A stretch of 36,716 nucleotides of DNA from Deltaproteobacteria bacterium (GTDB lineage Bacteria; UBA10199; SPLOWO2-01-44-7): the NCBI GenBank assembly GCA_016213065.1, contig JACRBV010000148.1:1-36716 (forward strand), in the 5' to 3' direction. The notes beneath the pieces are model-generated. The model saw nothing but the letters and a program-made list of their open reading frames with translations, searched no databases and had not been told where the DNA came from. The translations under genes and the position numbers were made by a program. Below, in pieces: positions 2,526 through 31,408 of the stretch (its first letter is position 1; each line of letters starts with the position of its first letter).

Positions 2526-3245
2526 TTATATCCATCGCAATTCTGAGAGAGGGATGCCGGTTAATCCAACACAATATCTTTGAAAAAGAGCGATAGCTCT
2601 TTTTTGCGGCTCTCCCAAATCGTAATAAAGTTTTTTCCAGTATTTTAGTAGATGGGTTTCTTGAGAAATTTTTTCCAGATTTTGCAAATTGGATTTTGCT
2701 GTTTCAATGAGGAACGGTTTCCATTTTTTCCCGATGGTTGGATTTTTCGTCATCCAACAAGCAAAAACAAATGGGAGTTTTGTCCATTCGGTCCAAGCCT
2801 CGCCTAAATCAAGAAAGGGTTGATCGGGATTTTCCTTCCAAACTTTATCCCCAATCAGTAAAGCCCCTTCGGTTGTTTCCTTTGGATTGCTTGTAAATCG
2901 GATAGAATTGAGGTTTCTTTCGAAACGATTTTGAAACAGAATTTTGAGAAGGTTTAAAGAAGTGAGTGAATCGGAATCGATGTAAATTGTTTTTATATTT
3001 TGAATGGTTGTACGTTTATTTCTAAAAAAAAGCTTCACGGTATCGACGGCGCCAAAGCTTCCAATTCCAACCCCCTCTATTAAATACCAGTCAGGGTCGA
3101 GAAAGGCAGTTACAACCGGAGACATAATAATGTCATCGGGACCGGACAATTTGGCCAGTTGCGAAGGCGGGGCCTTAAAAATATCACACGGGAGACCGTG
3201 TATGAGCGGGATAACGTTGGAATATGAAACGGTACCTAAGCGCAT
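2526..3245 (-). CDS. mqnA: Chorismate dehydratase MqnA (futalosine menaquinone pathway)
   Basis: Converts chorismate to 3-[(1-carboxyvinyl)oxy]benzoate, the first step of futalosine-dependent menaquinone synthesis. The 239-residue protein opens with the family-typical MRLGTVSYSN and carries LGEAWTEWTKLPFVFA near residues 147-162, the MqnA signature. I choose the start at 3245: an in-frame extension to 3371 exists, but its 42 extra residues are a translation of the heptamer array just upstream and do not belong to the family. The downstream amidohydrolase follows one base after the stop. Together they imply menaquinone by the futalosine route. Confidence 0.9.
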   Translation of the reverse strand: MRLGTVSYSNVIPLIHGLPCDIFKAPPSQLAKLSGPDDIIMSPVVTAFLDPDWYLIEGVGIGSFGAVDTVKLFFRNKRTTIQNIKTIYIDSDSLTSLNLLKILFQNRFERNLNSIRFTSNPKETTEGALLIGDKVWKENPDQPFLDLGEAWTEWTKLPFVFACWMTKNPTIGKKWKPFLIETAKSNLQNLEKISQETHLLKYWKKLYYDLGEPQKRAIALFQRYCVGLTGIPLSELRWI

Positions 3246-3250
3246 AGGGA

Positions 3251-3338
3251 AAGGACAATGGACAATGGACAATGGACTAAAAAGTATTTGGTCCCTTGTC
3301 CATGGTCCGTGGTCCATAGTCCATAGTCCATAGTCCGT
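3251..3338. repeat. Palindromic heptamer array upstream of mqnA
   Basis: The left arm is AAGGACA, ATGGACA, ATGGACA, ATGGACT (3251-3278) and the right arm is TGTCCAT, GGTCCGT, GGTCCAT, AGTCCAT, AGTCCAT, AGTCCGT (3297-3338), each in unbroken 7-nt phase. The arms are complementary, so the array can fold into a long hairpin. It begins 6 nt from the mqnA start codon and so supplies the mqnA leader. Confidence 0.85.
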
Positions 3339-3409
3339 GTTCCCCCTATCAAACCCCTTGCTATGATCCAAGTGTTATGTTAGTTCCGCTCCAGCTTTCT
3401 AATGAACTG

Positions 3410-3601: not shown

Positions 3602-3626
3602 GGTTATGAATTTAAATATGATTAAA

Positions 3627-3694
3627 GTGAGCAAAGCGAACGTGAGGGGGAGGCTCCAACGGCTTTGCCGTTGGAGGGGGCGACGCGAGCCCCT
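3627..3694 (+). repeat. 68-bp palindromic element, copy 1 (rimP leader)
   Basis: The first of three 68-bp ungapped copies. The core hairpin is CTCCAACGGC, TTT loop, GCCGTTGGAG (3654-3676), a perfect 10-bp stem inside GC-rich flanks. The element ends 5 nt before the rimP ATG, so it forms the rimP leader; its GGAGGGGG sits about 20 nt upstream of the start, too far for a usual Shine-Dalgarno. The other copies are at 10016-10083 (minus) and 25159-25226 (plus). Confidence 0.85.
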
Positions 3695-3699
3695 ATAAA

Positions 3700-4191
3700 A
3701 TGGATATAGCCGCTCTTTTAGAAAATGTTGAAAAGATTGTGAATCCGGTTGTGGAGAGTCTGGGTTTGGAGCTCATTGAAAGGGAGTTTATTCTCGATCA
3801 GGGGCGTTGGATTTTGCGGTTGTATATCGACCGCGAAGGAAAAGGCGTCACGATAGATGATTGCGAGACCGTCTCACGGGCTCTGGAACCGGTTTTGGAT
3901 GTGGAAGATATCATCCCCCAAAAATATTTTTTGGAGGTTTCTTCCCCGGGAATAGACCGTCCTTTAAGACGACCCAAAGATTTTGAACGGTTTGCAGGAA
4001 GTTTTGTCAAACTGGATACGAATGAAAAATTGGGAGACCGACATCATTTTTCAGGAATTTTGAAAGGTTTGCGTAACAATCAGATTGTTCTCCAAGAGGG
4101 AGAACAGGAGTGGCAGATCCCGTTCGAGTCGCTGAAAAAAGCGAAGATAAGGAGTGAAGAATTATGGCAACAAAAGCAAAAACGAAAGTAA
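3700..4191 (+). CDS. rimP: Ribosome maturation factor RimP
   Basis: A 30S subunit assembly factor of 163 residues, normal for the family. The N-terminal domain has GLELIEREF and LRLYIDRE, followed by the family block around FLEVSSPGIDRPL (about residues 79-91) and a C-terminal SH3-like domain. It is the first gene of the rimP-nusA-infB cluster and overlaps the nusA start by 28 nt. The start ATG comes right after a 68-bp palindromic repeat, so the original ribosome binding region seems to have been replaced or displaced. Confidence 0.95.
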   Translation: MDIAALLENVEKIVNPVVESLGLELIEREFILDQGRWILRLYIDREGKGVTIDDCETVSRALEPVLDVEDIIPQKYFLEVSSPGIDRPLRRPKDFERFAGSFVKLDTNEKLGDRHHFSGILKGLRNNQIVLQEGEQEWQIPFESLKKAKIRSEELWQQKQKRK

Positions 4192-5585: not shown

Positions 5586-7895
5586 ATGGACTCTGATAAA
5601 AAACCGATTGTTGAACAACGCATCAAACCGACGGTCATTCGCAGGCGGGCCAAGGAAGAGCCGGTAGCGAAGCCGCCTGTTCCTGTGAAAGCGGAAGCTC
5701 TATCACAACCGTCAAAACCAGAAAAACCCGCCGCGCCGGTGTTTATTGAAACAGAGGTCGCCCCTCCCATTATTCATTTGACCGCAAAAGAAAAGGAAGA
5801 GAAGGCGAAGAAAGCGGCCAAGAAAAAGAAATCAAAAGCGGAACTCGAACTGGAAGATATTCAACGCGCCGGTGGATTAAAACAATTCGCTCAACAAACT
5901 TTGGGAAGTGAAGAAGAGACGGAACCTGCCGAAAAAACTTTTGCGCCCTCAGTTGAGCGCGTCTTTGAACCGACCCATGTTGGAAGCGGTCGTCGTAAAA
6001 AACCGATTCGCCGTGAATTCAAGCAGACCCAAATTACCGAAACAAATGTAGCTAAGAAGGTGATTCGCATTCAAAATGCCATCACCATTTCAGAACTTTC
6101 CCAGTCAATGGGAATCAAATCGTCCGAGTTGATCAAAAAATTGATGGGGTTGGGAATGATGGCAACCACCAACCAAAATCTGGATGTCGATACCGCTACT
6201 CTGCTTGCCACCGATTATGGATTTGAGGTTCTGCACACCGCGTTCAAGGAAGAAGAGGTTTTGAAAGCCACGGCAAAAGAAACGGAAGATACGGATATGC
6301 AATGGCGTGCACCGGTTGTTACCGTGATGGGGCATGTTGACCATGGCAAAACTTCTCTGCTGGATGCAATTCGCAAAACCAAAGTCACGGAAAAAGAAGC
6401 GGGCGGAATCACGCAACACATCGGCGCTTATGAAGTGACGGTTGCGGAAACGCAACCGTCATCCCGAGGTCCAAAGGACCGAGGGATCTCCGAGGAGATC
6501 CTTCGCTCTGCTCAGGATGATCGTGCGATTTATCGCACGATCACATTTATTGATACACCCGGCCATCAAGCCTTTACGCAGATGCGCGCGCGTGGAGCGC
6601 AGGTCACCGATATTGTGGTGCTCGTTGTGGCGGCCGATGACGGCTTGATGCCGCAAACCATTGAAGCCATCAATCACGCCAAGGCGGCCAATGTTTCCAT
6701 CATCGTGGCGATTAATAAAATCGACAAACCTCAGGCCGATCCGGAAAAAGTAAAACGTCAACTAACTGAACACGGTTTGGTGGCGGAAGATTGGGGTGGA
6801 GATATTGTTTGCGTTCCCACCTCTGCAAAAACGGGACAGGGTTTGGATCATTTGCTCGAAATGATTTTGTTGACCGCCGAAGTAAAAGAACTGAAAGCCA
6901 ATGTCAGCGGAAGAGCGAAGGGCGTTGTGATTGAAGCGCGGTTGGATAAAGGACGCGGCCCTGTGGCTACAGCCTTGATTCAATCGGGGATATTAAATGT
7001 GGGAGATTTTGTGGTGGCGGGTCTCACCTACGGACGCGCGCGTGCCATGTTGCAGGCGGATGGTTCTTCTGTTGAAAAAGCGGGTCCTTCCAAACCGGTG
7101 GGACTCATCGGTTTGAATGCGGTGCCGGAAGCGGGAGAAGAATTGTTTGTGGTGGAAGACGAACGAGACGCCAAACGCATTGTTGAAACACGCCAGGCAA
7201 AAAAACGTTCTTCTGAATTATCGAAATCAGCCAAATTTTCACTTGAATCTTTGCAGGAACAAATTTCCAAAGGCGAAACGCACGAACTTCCCTTGGTTAT
7301 CAAGGGAGACGTCGCGGGTTCGGTGGAAGCTCTCACCGAAGCACTGACCGGCATGAGCAATAATCAGGTCACCGTGAAGACGCTTCACTCGGGCATTGGC
7401 GGCATTACAGAAAACGATGTCATGTTGGCCCGCGCTTCCAGAGCGGTTATTATTGGTTTCAACGTGGCGCCCGAAGGAAAGGCGAGGGCGTTGGCAGAAC
7501 AGGAAGGCATTGAAATCCGTCTTCACAACATCATTTACGAAGTGATGGATGACATCAAAAACGCGATGGAAGGATTGCTTGCACCTAAAATCACCGAGAA
7601 ATTTTTGGGACGTGCCAATGTCAAACAGGTTTTCAAAATTACCAAGGTCGGTACCATCGCCGGTTGCATGGTGAGCGACGGGATCATCCGCAGAAATTGT
7701 CAGCTCCGTCTCATCCGGGATGGCCAGATTATTTATCAGGGTAAACCCGCCTCTTTGAAACGCTTTAAAGACGATGCCCGCGAAGTCACTGCCGGCATGG
7801 ATTGCGGTATCGCGATTGAAAATTTCAACGACATCAAAGAAGGGGATGTTTTGGAAGCTTTCATTATGGAAGAAACGGCGCAAAAACTGCTATAG
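5586..7895 (+). CDS. infB: Translation initiation factor IF-2 with hairpin-rich insertion in the G domain
   Basis: GTPase that brings initiator fMet-tRNA to the 30S subunit. 769 residues: charged N-terminal region, IF2_N motif near residues 166-215, G1 GHVDHGKT near 249-256, [10 protein letters not shown] switch I region, G3 DTPGH near 323-327, G4 NKID, then domains II-IV. Between the AYEV strand (about residue 283) and ITFIDTPGH, where homologues have only a few residues, this protein has about 30 extra residues encoded by a train of perfect hairpins (6437-6542). The frame is kept, so the gene is probably functional. The TAG stop lies in the first unit of a heptamer array. No rbfA follows. 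Confidence 0.95.
6437..6542 (+). repeat. In-frame palindromic insertion within infB
   Basis: Four consecutive hairpins: GACGGTTGCG-GAAA-CGCAACCGTC (6437-6460, 10 bp), GGTCC-AAA-GGACC inside ATCCC/GGGAT (6461-6487), GATCTCC-GA-GGAGATC (6485-6500) and GATCGTGCGAT-TT-ATCGCACGATC (6519-6542, 11 bp). The middle part, TCATCC (6459) to GGATGA (6520), has the same ends as the intergenic family at 18834, 20140 and 24127. The insert reads as open protein in the infB frame. Confidence 0.85.
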
Positions 7896-8000
7896 ACCAT
7901 GGACCGCGGACAATGGACCATAGACCAAAAAACAAAAAAGGTAGTAAGTCCCTTGTCCATAGTCCATGGTCCGTGGTCCATGGTCCGCTTTCCACGGTCC
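7892..8000. repeat. Palindromic heptamer array at the infB-nrnA junction
   Basis: The left arm is ATAGACC, ATGGACC, GCGGACA, ATGGACC, ATAGACC (7892-7926), then an A-rich spacer; the right arm is TGTCCAT, AGTCCAT, GGTCCGT, GGTCCAT, GGTCCGC, TTTCCAC, GGTCC (7954-8000). The first unit contains the infB TAG, and the candidate nrnA starts (ATG 7913, GTG 7973) lie in the arms. Homologous nrnA coding sequence begins only at about 8000. Confidence 0.85.
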
Positions 8001-8959
8001 TTTCCGCCATCAAGACCGGCCGCCGGTTTCTTGTTGTCAGTCATTATCATCCCGACGGGGATGCGCTTGGTTCCACTTTGGCTCTGGGACTTTCCTTAAA
8101 AAAATTAGAGAAAAAAGTGGTGATGTATAACCGGGACAGGGTTCCCTATAACCTGAAATATCTGCCCGCGAGTTCCTCCATCACACAAACGCTTCCCAAT
8201 ATCTCTTTTGATTACACATTCATTGTTGATTGCGCCCAGCCCAAACGCGTGAGTGACGACTTTGCGAAAGCGCTCGAAGCAAAGCGTTTGGGAAAATTAT
8301 TGTGTCTCGACCATCATCTGCTCGATTACAAAGTTGGAGATGTTGACTGGATCGATCCGAAAGCGGCGTCAACCGGTTGTGTAATCTGGAAACTTTTGAA
8401 AACGCTGAAGCTTCATAAAAATAAAGATATCGCCAATCTGGTTTATTGCACTCTCACCGTGGACACCGGTTCTTTTCGCTATTCCAATACAACGGCCGAT
8501 GTTTTTAAGATGGCAGGCGAGTTGCTCCGTTACGGTGCAGACCCGTGGCTCGCGGCGCGAAATCTTGAAGAATCAAACCCGTCGGAGCGCTATGTTTTGC
8601 TGGGGCTGGCCCTCCGGTCACTTTTTGTCGGCATGAACGGAGAATATGCGTCGATGGATGTAACGCAGTCGATGCTCAAAGAATCAGGCGCCGGAGACGA
8701 TCTCTCGGAAGATTTTGCGAATTACCCGCGCTCCATTAAAGGCGTGGAAGTCTCCGCTCTTTTTCGGGAGATGGAAGATTTGCGCATCAAGGTGAGTCTT
8801 CGTTCCAAACTCAGAGTCGATGTCTCCAAAGTCGCCAAAAGTTTCGGTGGTGGCGGACACGTACATGCTGCAGGGTGTATTCTCCGCTGTGATTTAACCA
8901 GCGCCAAGAAGCAGATTGAGACAGAGGTGCGTAAAAAACTAAAAAATAAAAAATTTTGA
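7913..8959 (+). CDS. nrnA: DHH/DHHA1 phosphoesterase, NrnA-like nanoRNase
   Basis: Family members degrade short oligoribonucleotides and often dephosphorylate pAp. Motifs: SHYHPDGDALGS near residues 43-54, a DCA block, the DHH motif (LDHH) near 132-135, DTGSFRY near 192, and the DHHA1 glycine-rich GGGGHVHAAG near 312-321. It keeps the usual place between infB and truB. The first 29 or so residues are a translation of the heptamer array, and family similarity begins at VLSAIKTGRRFLVVSH. An in-frame GTG at 7973 would give a more typical N-terminus; no Shine-Dalgarno decides between them. The stop lies inside a second, A/T-rich heptamer array. Confidence 0.88.
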   Translation: MDHRPKNKKGSKSLVHSPWSVVHGPLSTVLSAIKTGRRFLVVSHYHPDGDALGSTLALGLSLKKLEKKVVMYNRDRVPYNLKYLPASSSITQTLPNISFDYTFIVDCAQPKRVSDDFAKALEAKRLGKLLCLDHHLLDYKVGDVDWIDPKAASTGCVIWKLLKTLKLHKNKDIANLVYCTLTVDTGSFRYSNTTADVFKMAGELLRYGADPWLAARNLEESNPSERYVLLGLALRSLFVGMNGEYASMDVTQSMLKESGAGDDLSEDFANYPRSIKGVEVSALFREMEDLRIKVSLRSKLRVDVSKVAKSFGGGGHVHAAGCILRCDLTSAKKQIETEVRKKLKNKKF

Positions 8960-9745: not shown

Positions 9746-10129
9746 TTAAGAACTCCTCGCCTGATTTTTGATGGTGAGAAGTAGGTCGACCAGTACGCGC
9801 GTTCCCATTTCACCTTCGGCAACAATCTCTTCGCGGAGTCTTTCAAGCGCCGCTTCATCGGTTAATGTCAGCAAACGCCCGATTTTTTCGCTGACGCGAT
9901 TCCATTCCGGTGAAAGGCGGGCATGCACTTGCTTGATGGCCGGATTTTCTTTTTCCTGTTTTTGCATGACTTCATCTACCGATGCGACAAAATCTTTCAT
10001 CTCCCAATCTTTTACAGGGGCTCGCGTCGCCCCCTCCACCGGCAAAGCCGGCGGAGCCTCCTCCTCTCGCTCGCTTTGCTCGCTTTTATGCTTCTTATGT
10101 TTTTTGGTGCGCGGGGTTTTTTTCTTCAT
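9746..10129 (-). CDS. Hypothetical protein carrying an in-frame 68-bp palindrome
   Basis: A 127-residue ORF with no family I recognise. Its ATG (10129-10127) overlaps the stop of the upstream CCA-adding enzyme gene in ATGA fashion, which supports the start. Residues about 1-15 are Lys-rich, residues about 16-38 (SEQSEREEEAPPALPVEGAT and on) are encoded by the palindromic element, and the rest (FVASVDEVMQKQ... TRVLVDLLLTIKNQA) looks helical and soluble. The native protein is probably about 100 residues. Confidence 0.6.
   Translation of the reverse strand: MKKKTPRTKKHKKHKSEQSEREEEAPPALPVEGATRAPVKDWEMKDFVASVDEVMQKQEKENPAIKQVHARLSPEWNRVSEKIGRLLTLTDEAALERLREEIVAEGEMGTRVLVDLLLTIKNQARSS
10016..10083 (-). 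repeat. 68-bp palindromic element, copy 3 (inside a small ORF)
   Basis: Aligns without gaps over 68 positions to the copies at 3627 and 25159. The stem is CTCCGCCGGC with GCCGGTGGAG; compared with copy 1, the sixth base pair has changed from A-T to C-G on both sides, and the fifth pair is G-T. It is read in the same phase and direction as the tilS copy. Confidence 0.85.
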
Positions 10130-11517
10130 TTTTTCTCCTCCAAGTTATGCATAATTTCTTTTGCCAGCGCCTGCAATTGTTCTTTTGTGTTTAAGGTTGG
10201 ATCATCGAGCACCCGTTCAACCAATTGTTTGAGAATTTTTCCCATTCCGGGTCCGGGAGGAATGCCGCCTGCAATCAAATCATGTCCCGTGATTGCGAGA
10301 TCGCCGGGACCAAACGGCGGTTTTTTTGCCAACTCCGTGCGCACGCGCTGGCGCATATTCGCAACCCCTTTGACAGAGCGAGGATGTTTGCCTCCGCGGT
10401 TATCGGCGAGTCGCAAATCGAGTAATTTATAAATTAGAGGTTCACCGATTTTGTGGACAAAACGGCGGATCGCCTTATCGGTGAAATACGATTTTGTTTC
10501 AAACATGTGATGCAGAACAAGGGTCTCCACATTTTTTGGATTGATTCCAAGCGTGGTTACTTTCATCCTCTGCATCCATTTGTGAACAATACGCCGCGAA
10601 ACAAGTTGATGTCCGTAGAAAACAATGCGGTCTTTTGCATCATCATATTTTCTGGTCGGCGTTTTTCCCACATCGTGGAAAAGGGCTGAAAACATGAGTT
10701 CCAAATCTCCGGGATTTTCCAGATATTCATCTGCTCTAGTGGCATCCAAAACACGCATTGTGTGTTTGTAAACATCATCTCCCGGGCGTTTGTCCTGCTC
10801 AATTCCAACCAGTGCGTCTACTTCCGGAAAGAGATATCGTAGTAATCCCACCTCCCGCATGATTTCAAAACCAACAGAAGGGACAGGGGCAGAAAAAAGT
10901 TTTTTAATCTCTTCGACAATTCGTTCGGCGGAAACGGTGGCGATCAAAGGGACACTGGTTTTCATGGCCTTCCATGTTTTGGGTTCGATTGTCAGACCCA
11001 ATCGGGCGGCAAACTGAACGGCGCGAATCAGCCGCAACGGATCTTCCTCGAAGGCCATGTCAAAAACAATGCGGAGCGTTTTGTTTTCCAAATCTTTTCG
11101 TCCGTTGAAAGGGTCAATAATCTGTTCAGTTTTTATGTTGAGAGCCATGGCGTTAATCGTAAAATCACGTCTTCCCAAATCTTCTTCAATGGAAAGATTT
11201 GGATCAAAGGCAACTTCAAAGTCGCGGTGTCCCACTCCGGTTGAAATTTCTTTTCGTGGAAGGGCGATATCGTAAACGATTTCTGATTCCGCATGGGGTG
11301 TGAATTTCAGGACTCCAAAAGATTTTCCCACAAAAGCAACTTTGCCGTAAGGAGTTAGAAGATTCTTCAACGTCTCCATCGAAATTTTTCGAACGAGCAG
11401 ATCTCTGTCCTTGTGAGGAATTTTAAGAAGCGCACCCCGAACGGTTCCGCCCACTTCATAAATTTCCCCTCCCGCTTGCCAGAGGGGTTCCAAAAATTTT
11501 AAAGACGATTTTGTCAC
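10126..11517 (-). CDS. cca: CCA-adding tRNA nucleotidyltransferase with HD domain
   Basis: Class II nucleotidyltransferase that adds or repairs tRNA 3' CCA. 463 residues. The head has GGTVRGAL (residues 23-30) and the catalytic pair Asp37/Asp39 (KDRDLLV), then RRDFTINAMA and DPLRLIRAVQFAARL of the neck. A C-terminal HD domain (ALFHDVGKT near residue 279) suggests added phosphohydrolase activity. Poly(A) polymerase I is the near alternative; I favour CCA because of the HD domain and the TGHDL-containing tail (about residue 418). It overlaps the small ORF downstream by ATGA; the stop of the PpiD-like gene lies within its first codons. Confidence 0.85.
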   Translation of the reverse strand: MTKSSLKFLEPLWQAGGEIYEVGGTVRGALLKIPHKDRDLLVRKISMETLKNLLTPYGKVAFVGKSFGVLKFTPHAESEIVYDIALPRKEISTGVGHRDFEVAFDPNLSIEEDLGRRDFTINAMALNIKTEQIIDPFNGRKDLENKTLRIVFDMAFEEDPLRLIRAVQFAARLGLTIEPKTWKAMKTSVPLIATVSAERIVEEIKKLFSAPVPSVGFEIMREVGLLRYLFPEVDALVGIEQDKRPGDDVYKHTMRVLDATRADEYLENPGDLELMFSALFHDVGKTPTRKYDDAKDRIVFYGHQLVSRRIVHKWMQRMKVTTLGINPKNVETLVLHHMFETKSYFTDKAIRRFVHKIGEPLIYKLLDLRLADNRGGKHPRSVKGVANMRQRVRTELAKKPPFGPGDLAITGHDLIAGGIPPGPGMGKILKQLVERVLDDPTLNTKEQLQALAKEIMHNLEEKK

Positions 11518-13055: not shown

Positions 13056-13192
13056 ATTTCTCCTCCTTGAGGGTTTATCCCCCAGTTTATTATTGGGCGA
13101 CGGCTATCAAAATTGCGTCCTATGAGCAAGGATATATCGTATGATTGCAACGGTTCAGATTTGATGTTAGTCAGCAATCCAAATTTAAGACT

Positions 13193-13306
<114 letters not shown>

Positions 13307-13324
13307 TTCCACAGGAGGATTTTT

Positions 13325-15166: not shown

Positions 15167-16093
15167 ATGCCACTGGAACCCTTTGACCAAGAAGAAACGA
15201 TTTATAAAAAGATTCGGCCCTATATTGTCGTTTCTCTGCTGGTCCATCTTTTGCTCCTTCTTTTATTTGAGAAAATTCCCGAGTCTGTGACTCTTCCCAC
15301 TCCGGGAAAAGAAGCCCCGATTTGGGTCGATTTAAAACAGCAGAAATACCAAATTGCGGATATCGACAAACCGGCGGAGGAAAAACGTCCCGACAAAAGT
15401 CAATTTTTGGGAATGTATGACAGCGCTGTTCCCGAAGAACAAGTCGCGGCAAAGCAGGGGAGGGACAGGACAATGGACCATGGACAACGGACCATGGAAC
15501 AAAAATCAAAAATCAAAAATCAAAAATCAAAAACGAAGAACGAAGAACAAAGAACAAAGAACGAAAAACCAAGAACCAAGAACCAAGAACCAAGAACAAA
15601 GACCCAAGAACCGCCTCTGAAAGATTTATACAAATTTGACAAAGAATCTTTTACAACTCCCGCACCGCAAAAGAGCGCGCCCAAAACAATGGCGAGTGGA
15701 AGTCCGTCGTCTGCTTTGCCCGATGATTTCTATCCCGATTACAAAAAAGGAAGTCGCACTTATCTGAATGTGCTTCGCTATCCCGACATCCAATATTTCG
15801 TGTTGTTGAAACGGGTTTTCAAAACGACCTTTGATCCGATCGGCGCTTTGCGCGCGGCCTTTACCAATAATCAAATTACACGCGGTTCCGTCGAAACGGT
15901 TTTGGGTGTGACGCTCGATGCGAAAGGAAATTTGGCAGAACTTTTCGTTTTCAAAAGCTCAGGCATCAGTGAATACGACCAAGAAACCCTGCGCACCATC
16001 CGCGCCTCCGCTCCCTTCTCAACTCCCCCCCAAAAACTTCTAGACGCCGAAGGCGTCATCCGCATGAGCTGGACCTTTACGGTGTATCTGTAG
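15167..16093 (+). CDS. TonB-family energy transducer with heptamer-encoded linker
   Basis: 308 residues. One N-terminal membrane helix with the TonB-like histidine (SLLVHLLLLLLF, about residues 23-35), a periplasmic linker, and a C-terminal TonB-type domain (SVETVLGVTLDAKGNLAELFVFKSSGISEYDQETLRTI, about residues 240-280, ending in MSWTFTVYL). It would couple the inner-membrane proton gradient to outer-membrane transport; no ExbB/ExbD gene is in the window. Residues about 100-149 of the linker are encoded by 21 consecutive heptamers and are rich in Lys, Asn, Gln, Arg and Thr, replacing or extending the usual Pro/Lys-rich linker. It starts 9 nt after recO. Confidence 0.78.
   Translation: MPLEPFDQEETIYKKIRPYIVVSLLVHLLLLLLFEKIPESVTLPTPGKEAPIWVDLKQQKYQIADIDKPAEEKRPDKSQFLGMYDSAVPEEQVAAKQGRDRTMDHGQRTMEQKSKIKNQKSKTKNEEQRTKNEKPRTKNQEPRTKTQEPPLKDLYKFDKESFTTPAPQKSAPKTMASGSPSSALPDDFYPDYKKGSRTYLNVLRYPDIQYFVLLKRVFKTTFDPIGALRAAFTNNQITRGSVETVLGVTLDAKGNLAELFVFKSSGISEYDQETLRTIRASAPFSTPPQKLLDAEGVIRMSWTFTVYL
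15466..15612 (+). repeat. 21-unit heptamer array within the TonB-like gene
   Basis: Without one phase slip the units run CAGGACA, ATGGACC, ATGGACA, ACGGACC, ATGGAAC, then four AAAAATC, AAAAACG, AAGAACG, two AAGAACA, AAGAACG, AAAAACC, three AAGAACC, AAGAACA, AAGACCC and AAGAACC. Total 147 nt, exactly 49 codons. The first units belong to the ATGGACN type and the rest are A-rich, which links the two repeat types. Confidence 0.92.
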
Positions 16094-18833: not shown

Positions 18834-18982
18834 TTGTCATCCTGAACACATTCGCTTTGCTCAGGGTAAACTCCGTGAAGGATCTGCTTGATAACAAATT
18901 GGATTCTTCGCGGAGTTTACCCTGAGCCCGAGCAGATTCTTCGCTTCGCTCAGAATGACAAAGCGAAGGGCTCAGAATGACA
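18834..18982. repeat. Nested palindromic element between nadB and pgsA
   Basis: Outer ends TTGTCATCCTGA and TCAGAATGACA enclose a perfect 15-bp stem TCAGGGTAAACTCCG (18861-18875) with CGGAGTTTACCCTGA (18911-18925), plus TTCGCTTCGCTCAGAATGAC blocks. It belongs to the same family as the elements at 20140 and 24127 and to the core of the infB insertion. It fills most of the divergent nadB-pgsA region. Confidence 0.8.
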
Positions 18983-24290: not shown

Positions 24291-25397
24291 ATGTGCTCCA
24301 TGTACAAATCTTTTCGCGCCGCTGTTTTGAGGGAGAGTTTTATTTCCGCCGGTGATTCGGTATTGGTTGGTGTCTCCGGCGGTGTTGACTCGATGGTCCT
24401 TCTTTCCCTTTTACTTGAGTTGCAACAGGACATTGATTTTGCGCTCAGTGTGGCACACGTCAACTACGGTCTTCGCGGGGAAGAGTCGGATGATCAGGAA
24501 AAATTGGTGCGCGATTTTTGTCTCCGTAACTATTTGCGCTGTTTTTTTTCGAACCCAAAACTTTTTGAGACGCAAAAAGACAATCTTCAAAATGCGGCCC
24601 GGGATTTCCGTTATCATTATTTTTCTGAAATGGCTTTGGAGACAGGTGTCAACCGTGTTGCCGTGGCCCATCACAAGGAAGATCAAGTGGAGACCATCTT
24701 GGGGCATTTACTGAGGGGTTCCAGTTTGAAGGGGCTGGCGGGGATGCAGACGGTGAGAAAAATGCAAAATTCAAAAATCAAAGATCAAAATTTAATGTTG
24801 ATTCGTCCTTTGCTTACTTTCAGCAAAGAAGAAATTAAAAAATATGCCGCGGAAAATAAAGTTTCCTATCTGGAAGACTCTTCCAATCTTTCCAAAGAAT
24901 ATTGGCGCAATCAGTTACGTCATGACTTGTTGCCGGTGCTTGAAAAATTAAGACCTAAAGCCTTTGACAAAATTGTCCAATTGGGGGATGACCTGCGCGA
25001 AGTCGCTGATTTTTTGACAATTACGGCCACAGATTGGCTCAAGGAATTTTCCAGAAAAGAAGAAGATGCTTTCTGGATGCCGCGTCCTCGGTGGGCAACT
25101 CTTCCAAGACCGCTTCGTCTGGAAGTGCTTCATCAAGCCGTGAAAATGTTCGCAACTAGTGAGCGAAGCGAACGAGAGGGGGAGGCTCCGACGGCTTTGC
25201 CGTTGGAGGGGGCGACGCGAGCCCCTGTAATAGTTTTGAAGGATTTAAAAAGAGATCATTTGGTTCGTTGTGAACAGATTGCGCTTGGTGAAAAACCGGA
25301 AGGTTATTACCATCTGCCGGCAGAATTAAGATTTGTGCGGCAGGGCGATTCGTTGCTACTTTCAAAAAGCTGTGTTAACTTGAGGTCAAACAAATGA
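24291..25397 (+). CDS. tilS: tRNA(Ile)-lysidine synthase TilS with two repeat-derived insertions
   Basis: ATP-dependent lysinylation of C34 in tRNA-Ile(CAU). The PP-loop SGGVDS is at residues 29-34, with [11 protein letters not shown] near 61, [12 protein letters not shown] near 121 and LIRPLL near 171. The protein carries two foreign stretches: residues about 159-168 ([10 protein letters not shown]-like) from four heptamers, and residues about 290-312 from a 68-bp palindrome in the C-terminal part. Both keep the frame. ATG 24291 is used; ATG 24300 is equally possible, with no clear Shine-Dalgarno. The stop overlaps the ftsH ATG (ATGA). Confidence 0.92.
24766..24793 (+). repeat. Four heptamers inside tilS
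   Basis: AAAATTC, AAAAATC, AAAGATC, AAAATTT in exact 7-nt phase, 28 nt, between the region coding GMQTV and the conserved LIRPLL. Homologues are usually shorter here. The units resemble the AAAAATC block of the TonB-like gene. Confidence 0.75.
25159..25226 (+). repeat. 68-bp palindromic element, copy 2 (inside tilS)
   Basis: Ungapped alignment to the other two copies. The stem is CTCCGACGGC with GCCGTTGGAG (one G-T wobble against copy 1). It is read in frame as [20 protein letters not shown] plus RAP. It uses the same phase as the copy at 10016-10083. Confidence 0.88.
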
Positions 25398-30284: not shown

Positions 30285-30404
30285 AGTTATGACTGGGAGA
30301 TTTCATTTTGTTTGGCAATAAAGCATAAAATAAATTTCTTCTGGCCGTTGTTTAATATATGTTTGCCGGCGCCCTCTATTTTGAAAAGGCTCCACACTGT
30401 GCTA

Positions 30405-30442
30405 TTTTCCCCTCCATCATGTCACTCAAACAGGAGGGAAAA
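30405..30442 (+). promoter_or_regulatory. Hairpin masking the transposase ribosome binding site
   Basis: TTTTCCCCTCC (30405-30415) pairs with GGAGGGAAAA (30433-30442) with one bulged C. The right strand is the transposase Shine-Dalgarno, so the folded leader would hide it. Read-through transcripts from outside the IS would carry this fold; similar protection is known for IS10 and IS50. Confidence 0.6.
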
Positions 30443-30445
30443 ACC

Positions 30446-31408
30446 ATGACTTTTTTAGAAACCGACATCAACGAACTCGTTTCCGCAAACCACCCTTACC
30501 GTAAGATACTGGAGCTTGTTGATTTTAGGGAGCTGACGAAAGAATTACGGAAGTGTTATTCCAAAATGGGGAGAGGCGGTTACCCCGTTGAAAGTGGATT
30601 CAAGGCCTTGTTGCTTCAATATATGGAAGATTTAAGCAATCGGGAAGCCCAGCGATTTTTGGAGGAGAATTTGTCAGGCAAATTATTTTGTGGATTTAAT
30701 TTGAGAGAGCAAACACCCGAGCACACCTATTTTGTGGATTTACGACAGCGAATAGGGACGAAACGTCTGGCAGAATTATTTAATCGGGTACGGGAGGCGT
30801 TGATACGCAACGGGATGATCCGAGAGGTTTTTACGTTTGTGGATGCGACAAAGCTAATCAGCAAGATGTCGACATGGGATGAGAGGGACAAGGCGATAAA
30901 AGCGGGAGAGGAGAAATTCAATAATGCGGTGGCAGAGAAATATGCGCGAGACAAAGAGGCGCGATTTGGTTGCAAAGGGAAAGATAAATTTTGGTTTGGG
31001 CACAAGAAGAATATTTCAGTGGACATGACAAATGGTCTGATCAACAAGGTGGCCGTTACTCCTGCGAATGTACCGGACCATAAGGGGTTAAAACATATTT
31101 GTCCGAGGCAGGGGGCTGTTTTTGGGGACAAGGTATTTTCGCCAAAGTATTCACGGGATGAGATCAAGAGGCGGGGATGCCATTCTGGTGTGATACTGAA
31201 AAACAACATGAAAGAGAAAGATCGGGACAAGGATCGATGGCTGACGAAGGTGCGCATGCCCTATGAAGGAACCTTTGCCAGAATGAGGAAGCGAACGTGG
31301 TATTCTGGGGTGGCAAAAAATCAATTGGAGGCATTTTTAGAGGCACTTGTTTTTAATTTTAAGCGGCTGATTAAGATAGAAGCGCCTCCCCTTCAATTCA
31401 CTTCCTGA
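30446..31408 (+). CDS. DDE transposase, IS5-like family
   Basis: 320 residues from ATG 30446, set by AGGAGGG eight bases upstream; an in-frame extension to 30359 is not supported. The N-terminal DUF772-type region (FKALLLQYMEDLSNREAQRFLEE, TYFVDLRQRIG) is followed by the catalytic triad: Asp in FVDATKL, Asp in VFGDKVFS and Glu in MPYEGTFARMRKR. HKKNISVDMTNGLI is typical of the family. The frame is intact and all three acidic residues are present, so it may be active. Confidence 0.88.
   Translation: MTFLETDINELVSANHPYRKILELVDFRELTKELRKCYSKMGRGGYPVESGFKALLLQYMEDLSNREAQRFLEENLSGKLFCGFNLREQTPEHTYFVDLRQRIGTKRLAELFNRVREALIRNGMIREVFTFVDATKLISKMSTWDERDKAIKAGEEKFNNAVAEKYARDKEARFGCKGKDKFWFGHKKNISVDMTNGLINKVAVTPANVPDHKGLKHICPRQGAVFGDKVFSPKYSRDEIKRRGCHSGVILKNNMKEKDRDKDRWLTKVRMPYEGTFARMRKRTWYSGVAKNQLEAFLEALVFNFKRLIKIEAPPLQFTS

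Follow-up and report, generated by a model that had tools for sequence, protein, structure and literature searches.

The 36,716-nt stretch of DNA analysed here (the window) carries three copies of a short palindromic repeat, one in the leader of a gene and two inside protein-coding sequences, which raises the question of what kind of repeat this is and how it comes to be read as part of unrelated proteins. Palindromes that code for protein have been described in Rickettsia and Wolbachia, and some other bacteria have REPs and MITEs within their genes; what is new is the same behaviour from this repeat in uncultured, mostly groundwater-derived lineages. We consider it highly probable (about 85%) that the repeat is a non-autonomous mobile element of about 75 nt with three hairpins, which inserts 5' of a GA dinucleotide and whose survival in genes is set by its length and reading frame.

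Copies in the window and in the host genome

A sequence-only reading of the window had proposed a mobile palindrome of 68 nt in three copies. The three copies are present, at 3626-3703 (plus strand), 10007-10084 (minus strand) and 25158-25235 (plus strand), but the proposed limits were a few bases short on each side. Copy 1 lies in the leader of an ORF directly 3' of it (3700-4191, plus strand), presumably rimP, judging by its position beside nusA and infB-like ORFs, and the tail of the copy, TATAAAATGG, continues into the start codon of this gene. The hairpins of copy 1, all on the plus strand, occupy positions 3627-3632/3636-3641 (H1), 3654-3663/3667-3676 (H2) and 3677-3681/3689-3693 (H3). 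Copy 2 encodes an insert of 24 letters close to the N-terminus of a small, conserved protein of 127 aa, in frame with its ORF (9746-10129, minus strand), which lies just downstream of a CCA-adding-enzyme-like ORF (10126-11517). No Pfam match was found for this protein, which has homologues of 62-71% identity in five relatives (G001 to G005); those of G003 and G004 are contiguous across the insertion site, so that the site is empty there. Copy 3 encodes an in-frame insert of 26 letters toward the C-terminus of the product of a tilS-like gene of the PP-loop family (24291-25397, plus strand; PF01171, E 4.4e-56), and has an empty counterpart in the TilS of G002, G003 and G004.

The host genome is a draft assembly of 1,798,199 bases in 155 contigs, 96% complete. 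A BLAST search of it with copy 1 as a query gave E-values from 2.4e-32 to 2e-20 for the 40 matches scored among 82 candidates. Column conservation in 40 aligned copies revealed that both edges of the element are sharp, with AG at the left and TAGA at the right. The unit of about 75 nt, AG...ATA|GA, spans 78 aligned columns and contains three consecutive hairpins. The search with a covariance model, which had been named beforehand as the test of whether further copies exist, confirmed that they do: the model, built from 35 copies, had at least 74 matches among the 150 of 831 candidates that were scored, and 68 matches reached at least 59 bits and were near-full-length. The element is thus dispersed at roughly 70 places in the genome. 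Some copies are identical over 70 nt at unrelated loci, such as those encoding NuoN and SseA, which indicates a recent spread.

A few copies are discrete length variants that have a longer module in place of hairpin 2 or lack this hairpin, and nearly all lengths are multiples of three. Variants of 126-127 nt lie on host contigs C2 (19811), C106 (5185), C3 (6515) and C109 (15029), and those of 48 nt on C62 (27753) and C56 (16532). Two length variants are in frame as well, one of 48 nt in a squalene/phytoene synthase and one of 126 nt in a pyruvate:ferredoxin oxidoreductase.

In the alignment, H1 comprises columns 2-7/11-16, H2 columns 29-38/42-51 with the loop TTT, and H3 columns 52-56/64-68, which corresponds to stems of 6, 10 and 5 bp, loops of 3, 3 and 7 nt, and the tail TATAATAGA. 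The ends of the element, AG...ATA, are not complementary, and terminal inverted repeats are absent. The middle of H1 has tandem G-A mismatches in most copies and is Watson-Crick paired in several (GCTCGC/GCGAGC, GCCCGC/GCGGGC). The pair changes noticed earlier in the three copies of the window proved to be real, being A-T or C-G at columns 34 and 46, and A-T or G-T at columns 33 and 47. The wider claim of a covarying stem was borne out by 35 distinct copies, in which seven pairs, all of them in H1 and H2, were changed on both sides. There were 35 cells with such changes versus 11.8 +/- 4.8 in shuffles, the covariation score was 0.142 versus 0.080 +/- 0.007 in shuffles, and the signal was lost when the structure was slid along the alignment. 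In H3, no both-side changes were found among these 35 copies. The paired changes suggest that the fold is maintained, or that it was copied from paired sources.

In-frame copies, empty sites and the length rule

When the six frames were followed outward from each of the 68 near-full-length copies, 29 copies lay inside ORFs that continue on both sides, and 26 of the 29 were read in one and the same frame (p = 4.5e-10 under equal use of the three frames that are normally open, with copies treated as independent, which they are not fully). This preferred frame reads the peptide of 24 letters that had been proposed from the window, and close variants of it among the copies. Roughly 30 copies in a single 1.8-Mb genome are thus inside protein genes, many of them essential, and each adds about 25 amino acids. 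The NCBIfam curated cut-offs were exceeded by 13 of the 20 host proteins that were scanned, among them RseP, PheT, dCTP deaminase, RNase R, NuoN, GlpK and PriA, as well as SufS, Era, RecG, AcsA and IspE; other host identities rest on Pfam. Two copies each are present in RseP and in a PurF fragment. In ThrS and in some N-terminal cases, the copy may be upstream of the true start. At one further locus (host contig C110, 5899-5976; L005), an alanine/sodium symporter-like gene seems to take its start codon from the tail of the element, TATGATAGA.

For the comparison of insertion sites with those of relatives, two concatenated queries of insert-free host sequences were used in the search of ten relatives, and 60 regions were fetched. 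As had been anticipated of a mobile repeat, empty sites were found: for 23 of the 26 sites tested, and for the small protein of the window, homologues from the family's other genera align straight across the site. Sites were empty in up to five sister genera, with homologues about 40-82% identical over the site, and the element was absent from the host's insertion sites in every relative compared. As the sites were read from homologous proteins of other genera, these comparisons suggest the empty site at the level of bases indirectly. The insertion sites are usually loops in which relatives already vary by a few residues. One loop of RNase R has differing inserts of about 10-60 residues across genera (loci L286 of G002, L310 of G004, L266 of G003 and L306 of G005) and is an insertion hot spot.

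The length of the copies separated those inside genes from the others. With the right edge placed before the GA of the tail for length scoring, all 21 in-gene copies with a placeable end were 75 nt long, whereas copies elsewhere were of 75 nt in 10 cases and of 76 nt in 18 (Fisher p = 1.8e-6 versus in-gene copies). An insert of 76 nt would shift the frame, whereas the 75-nt form of the scored in-gene copies is frame-neutral. This natural 75/76-nt polymorphism is a built-in test that selection for the reading frame decides the sites at which copies survive.

Most in-gene copies are followed by a D or E residue. For 16 of 17 such genes, one relative or more also has D or E at this position, and 41 of the 56 residues of relatives aligned to it are D or E, compared with a background of 11%, although the aligner could help slightly. 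The D/E codon after the insert is therefore ancestral, which points to insertion 5' of GA and supplies a target-site rule. Judging by these alignments, the GA is most likely part of the target, and the insertion itself contributes 25 codons.

We propose that the element would insert immediately 5' of a GA dinucleotide, and that an insertion in a gene would survive if the copy is of the 75-nt form, adding 25 codons without a frame shift, and if its open, hydrophilic frame continues that of the host in a tolerant loop. The 76-nt form, which would be frame-shifting, was seen only outside genes read in the preferred frame. The paired stems would be needed for mobility, probably as single-stranded DNA, and an enzyme would act on the element in trans. 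The inserts are presumably translated, and presumably tolerated rather than useful. The system bears on how such elements move and on how proteins gain new segments of about 25 amino acids.

Distribution and relation to known repeat families

Among 60 relatives searched, the element was found, at E <= 1e-4 and with the host genome included, in 22 genomes, all of the same class, and in-frame copies of this class outside the host genome include those in RimP-like and aminoacyl-tRNA-synthetase-like proteins. An exact-pattern scan of genome contigs gave 66 stretches, several of them in metagenome-assembled genomes with the labels Nitrospirae, Troglogloeales, Syntrophus or Syntrophobacterales, where the copies number 10 to 71 per genome. 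NusA of the genomes with these outside labels is 49-50% identical to that of the window, as compared with 57-79% within the class, and lies farther from it than the NusA of any class member that had a match. By these labels and NusA identities, the element is not confined to one class. In-frame copies are present in these outside genomes as well, in a QueA-like protein of G063 and an alcohol-dehydrogenase-like protein of G061, both named from sequence. The viral contigs, phages and plasmids that were searched had no match, and a vehicle among them was accordingly rejected.

The likeness to Rickettsia palindromic elements (RPEs; Ogata et al. 2000/2002), proposed before from the window, holds for behaviour and fails for anatomy. 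As with RPEs (reviewed in PMC2229807), the element is palindromic and mobile, is present in tens of copies, some intergenic and others in frame within a wide range of unrelated conserved genes, and shows an association with RNA genes. In that account, RPEs are 105-146 bp long and fold into a single long stem-loop with inverted repeats at its ends, whereas the present element is of about 75 nt, has three small hairpins without end-to-end pairing, and occurs in other lineages. By its anatomy, the element appears to be distinct from the RPE family, the likeness being one of behaviour. Wolbachia palindromic elements, described in the same account as protein-coding palindromic repeats outside Rickettsia (PMC2229807), are comparable by that description but belong to another lineage.

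Intragenic REPs of the GTAG and CGTC kinds, reported in Opitutus terrae, R. conorii, Thauera and others, are similar in being short hairpins that sometimes code for 20-30 amino acids, including in tRNA synthetase and DNA repair genes (PMC3733652). In contrast to these single hairpins of 20-40 bp, tagged GTAG or CGTC, the element is a fixed unit of three hairpins, has no tag, and is not associated with a REP-associated tyrosine transposase (RAYT). It lacks an unpaired GTAG at the hairpin foot and a cognate RAYT flanked by the repeat, which characterise GTAG REPs, as well as the terminal CGTC, the stem of 8-9 bp, the loop of 4-5 nt and the CCA-like tail of CGTC REPs.

NEMIS/Correia (107-bp form) and ERIC (127-bp form) are likewise small and mobile, and their open frames become fused in frame with genes (PMC2229807). 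The NEMIS form inside genes is shorter and open and the one outside is longer and closed, which parallels the 75/76-nt rule of the element. These repeats are MITEs, with terminal inverted repeats and target duplications, whereas the element is devoid of terminal inverted repeats. Long direct repeats are seen at a minority of its copies. Since it lacks the anatomical traits of RPEs, GTAG REPs, CGTC REPs and MITEs, the element is not a member of those families. No description of it was found in the open-licence literature.

Alternative explanations for the spread of the element

A mobilising enzyme for the element was not found when RAYTs (PF01797) and reverse transcriptases (PF00078) were checked. 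The latter had no match in the host genome or in several other carriers, and reverse transcriptase was rejected as the mobiliser. We tentatively suggest, as a possibility that we would not favour over its negation, that several bacterial lineages share an undescribed route driven neither by RAYT nor by reverse transcriptase, in which a multi-hairpin DNA unit would be inserted 5' of GA, would sometimes duplicate or recode the end of the target gene or tRNA, and would leave its in-frame copies as survivors.

The strongest of the rival explanations, although rather improbable, is that the element spreads by a process that duplicates its target, for instance a tyrosine-recombinase event of att type or template switching, and that decay or selection produced the short copies which lack repeats. 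Some copies are indeed flanked by direct repeats, the right one beginning at the end of the element or within a few bases of it. These repeats measure 17 and 21 nt in the host genome. In other cases they are parts of tRNA-Thr and tRNA-Gly genes or the 3' ends of genes, in one instance with the stop; such 3' ends were repeated in G001, G005 and G009, and in two of these cases all differences between the repeats are synonymous. Long flanking repeats of 17 nt and more would not be predicted by simple cut-and-paste. However, direct repeats exceed the null at few copies of the host genome only; repeats of at least 14 nt are found at only 4 of its 68 copies, and just two begin exactly at the element end. 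Moreover, tandem duplication could account for the tRNA cases, no duplicated residues are seen in the proteins that hold in-gene copies, and the lack of a reverse transcriptase match in the host genome also speaks against this explanation. The long direct repeats may have been left by insertion itself or may have arisen through duplication afterwards. They were seen at loci L057, L069, L121, L187, L189 and L053, and on host contigs C124 (14397) and C30 (5865); the repeated gene ends of L057 and L069 are distinguished solely by synonymous codons and swapped stop codons, and a third copy of the repeat is seen in L069, which has an rplL-like end.

It is unlikely that the element is a REP moved by a RAYT, a link that the sequence-only reading had advised looking for and that was not found. 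The element does resemble REPs in having short hairpins, many copies and no transposase of its own, and Y1_Tnp (PF01797) genes are present in 38 of the 46 genomes searched, two of them in the host genome, and in 7 of 10 further carriers. Yet both RAYT-like genes of the host are bracketed by their own, unrelated inverted repeats, with the element beside neither, and it is absent from all eight RAYT loci fetched from relatives. Three genomes, G015 (98% complete), G035 and G037, carry the element without a PF01797 match, whereas G004 has five RAYTs and no match to the element model. A conserved GTAG tag is also missing: column 71 is C, the complement expected of GTAG, in 11 of 40 copies, and T in 26. 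RAYT was therefore rejected as the mobiliser, being neither flanked by the element nor present in all carriers. On host contig C56 (3590-3760 and 4425-4485; L175), a RAYT-like gene is bracketed by ACATATAGTACC / GGTACTATATGT repeats, which are likely a cognate RAYT repeat family unrelated to the element.

Very improbable is that the inserts are adaptive or regulatory, being kept for a transcribed RNA structure or a functional peptide. The paired changes that maintain the fold and the repeated use of one frame would fit this, but sister genera do not share the insertion sites and the host proteins are unrelated to one another. No Rfam match was found in the window; a known RNA family was accordingly rejected, and the result argues against this explanation as well. 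Furthermore, the stems are preserved outside genes to the same degree as inside or to a greater one, which accords more with a part in movement than with one in the host protein. An assembly or binning artefact can practically be dismissed: repeats can mislead an assembler, and the draft genome is split into 155 contigs, but misassembly is implausible as a source of frame-preserving inserts with exact length control in about 30 genes, and independent assemblies of other genomes show the same in-frame copies.

Besides the mobile three-hairpin element, the window holds a transposase-like ORF and other repeats. An ORF at 30359-31408 reads like a transposase of the IS5-type DDE family. In the infB-like ORF (5586-7895), a different repeat-like stretch of 29 letters (6450-6536) seems to be inserted in frame; it sits in the G domain of IF-2, just before a 13-letter motif, and resembles the CTTCGCTC-AGAATGAC repeats at 18935, 20182 and 24151. 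Arrays of a 7-nt unit (TGGACCA and derivatives) are present at 15464-15610, 3244-3343, 7892-8007 and 13184-13313, and are read in frame in one ORF (DRTMDHGQRTMEQKSK...). The RseP of the host genome and the RNase R of a relative (L306) also contain a 10-letter motif of these arrays, so a second type of repeat likewise enters genes in frame.
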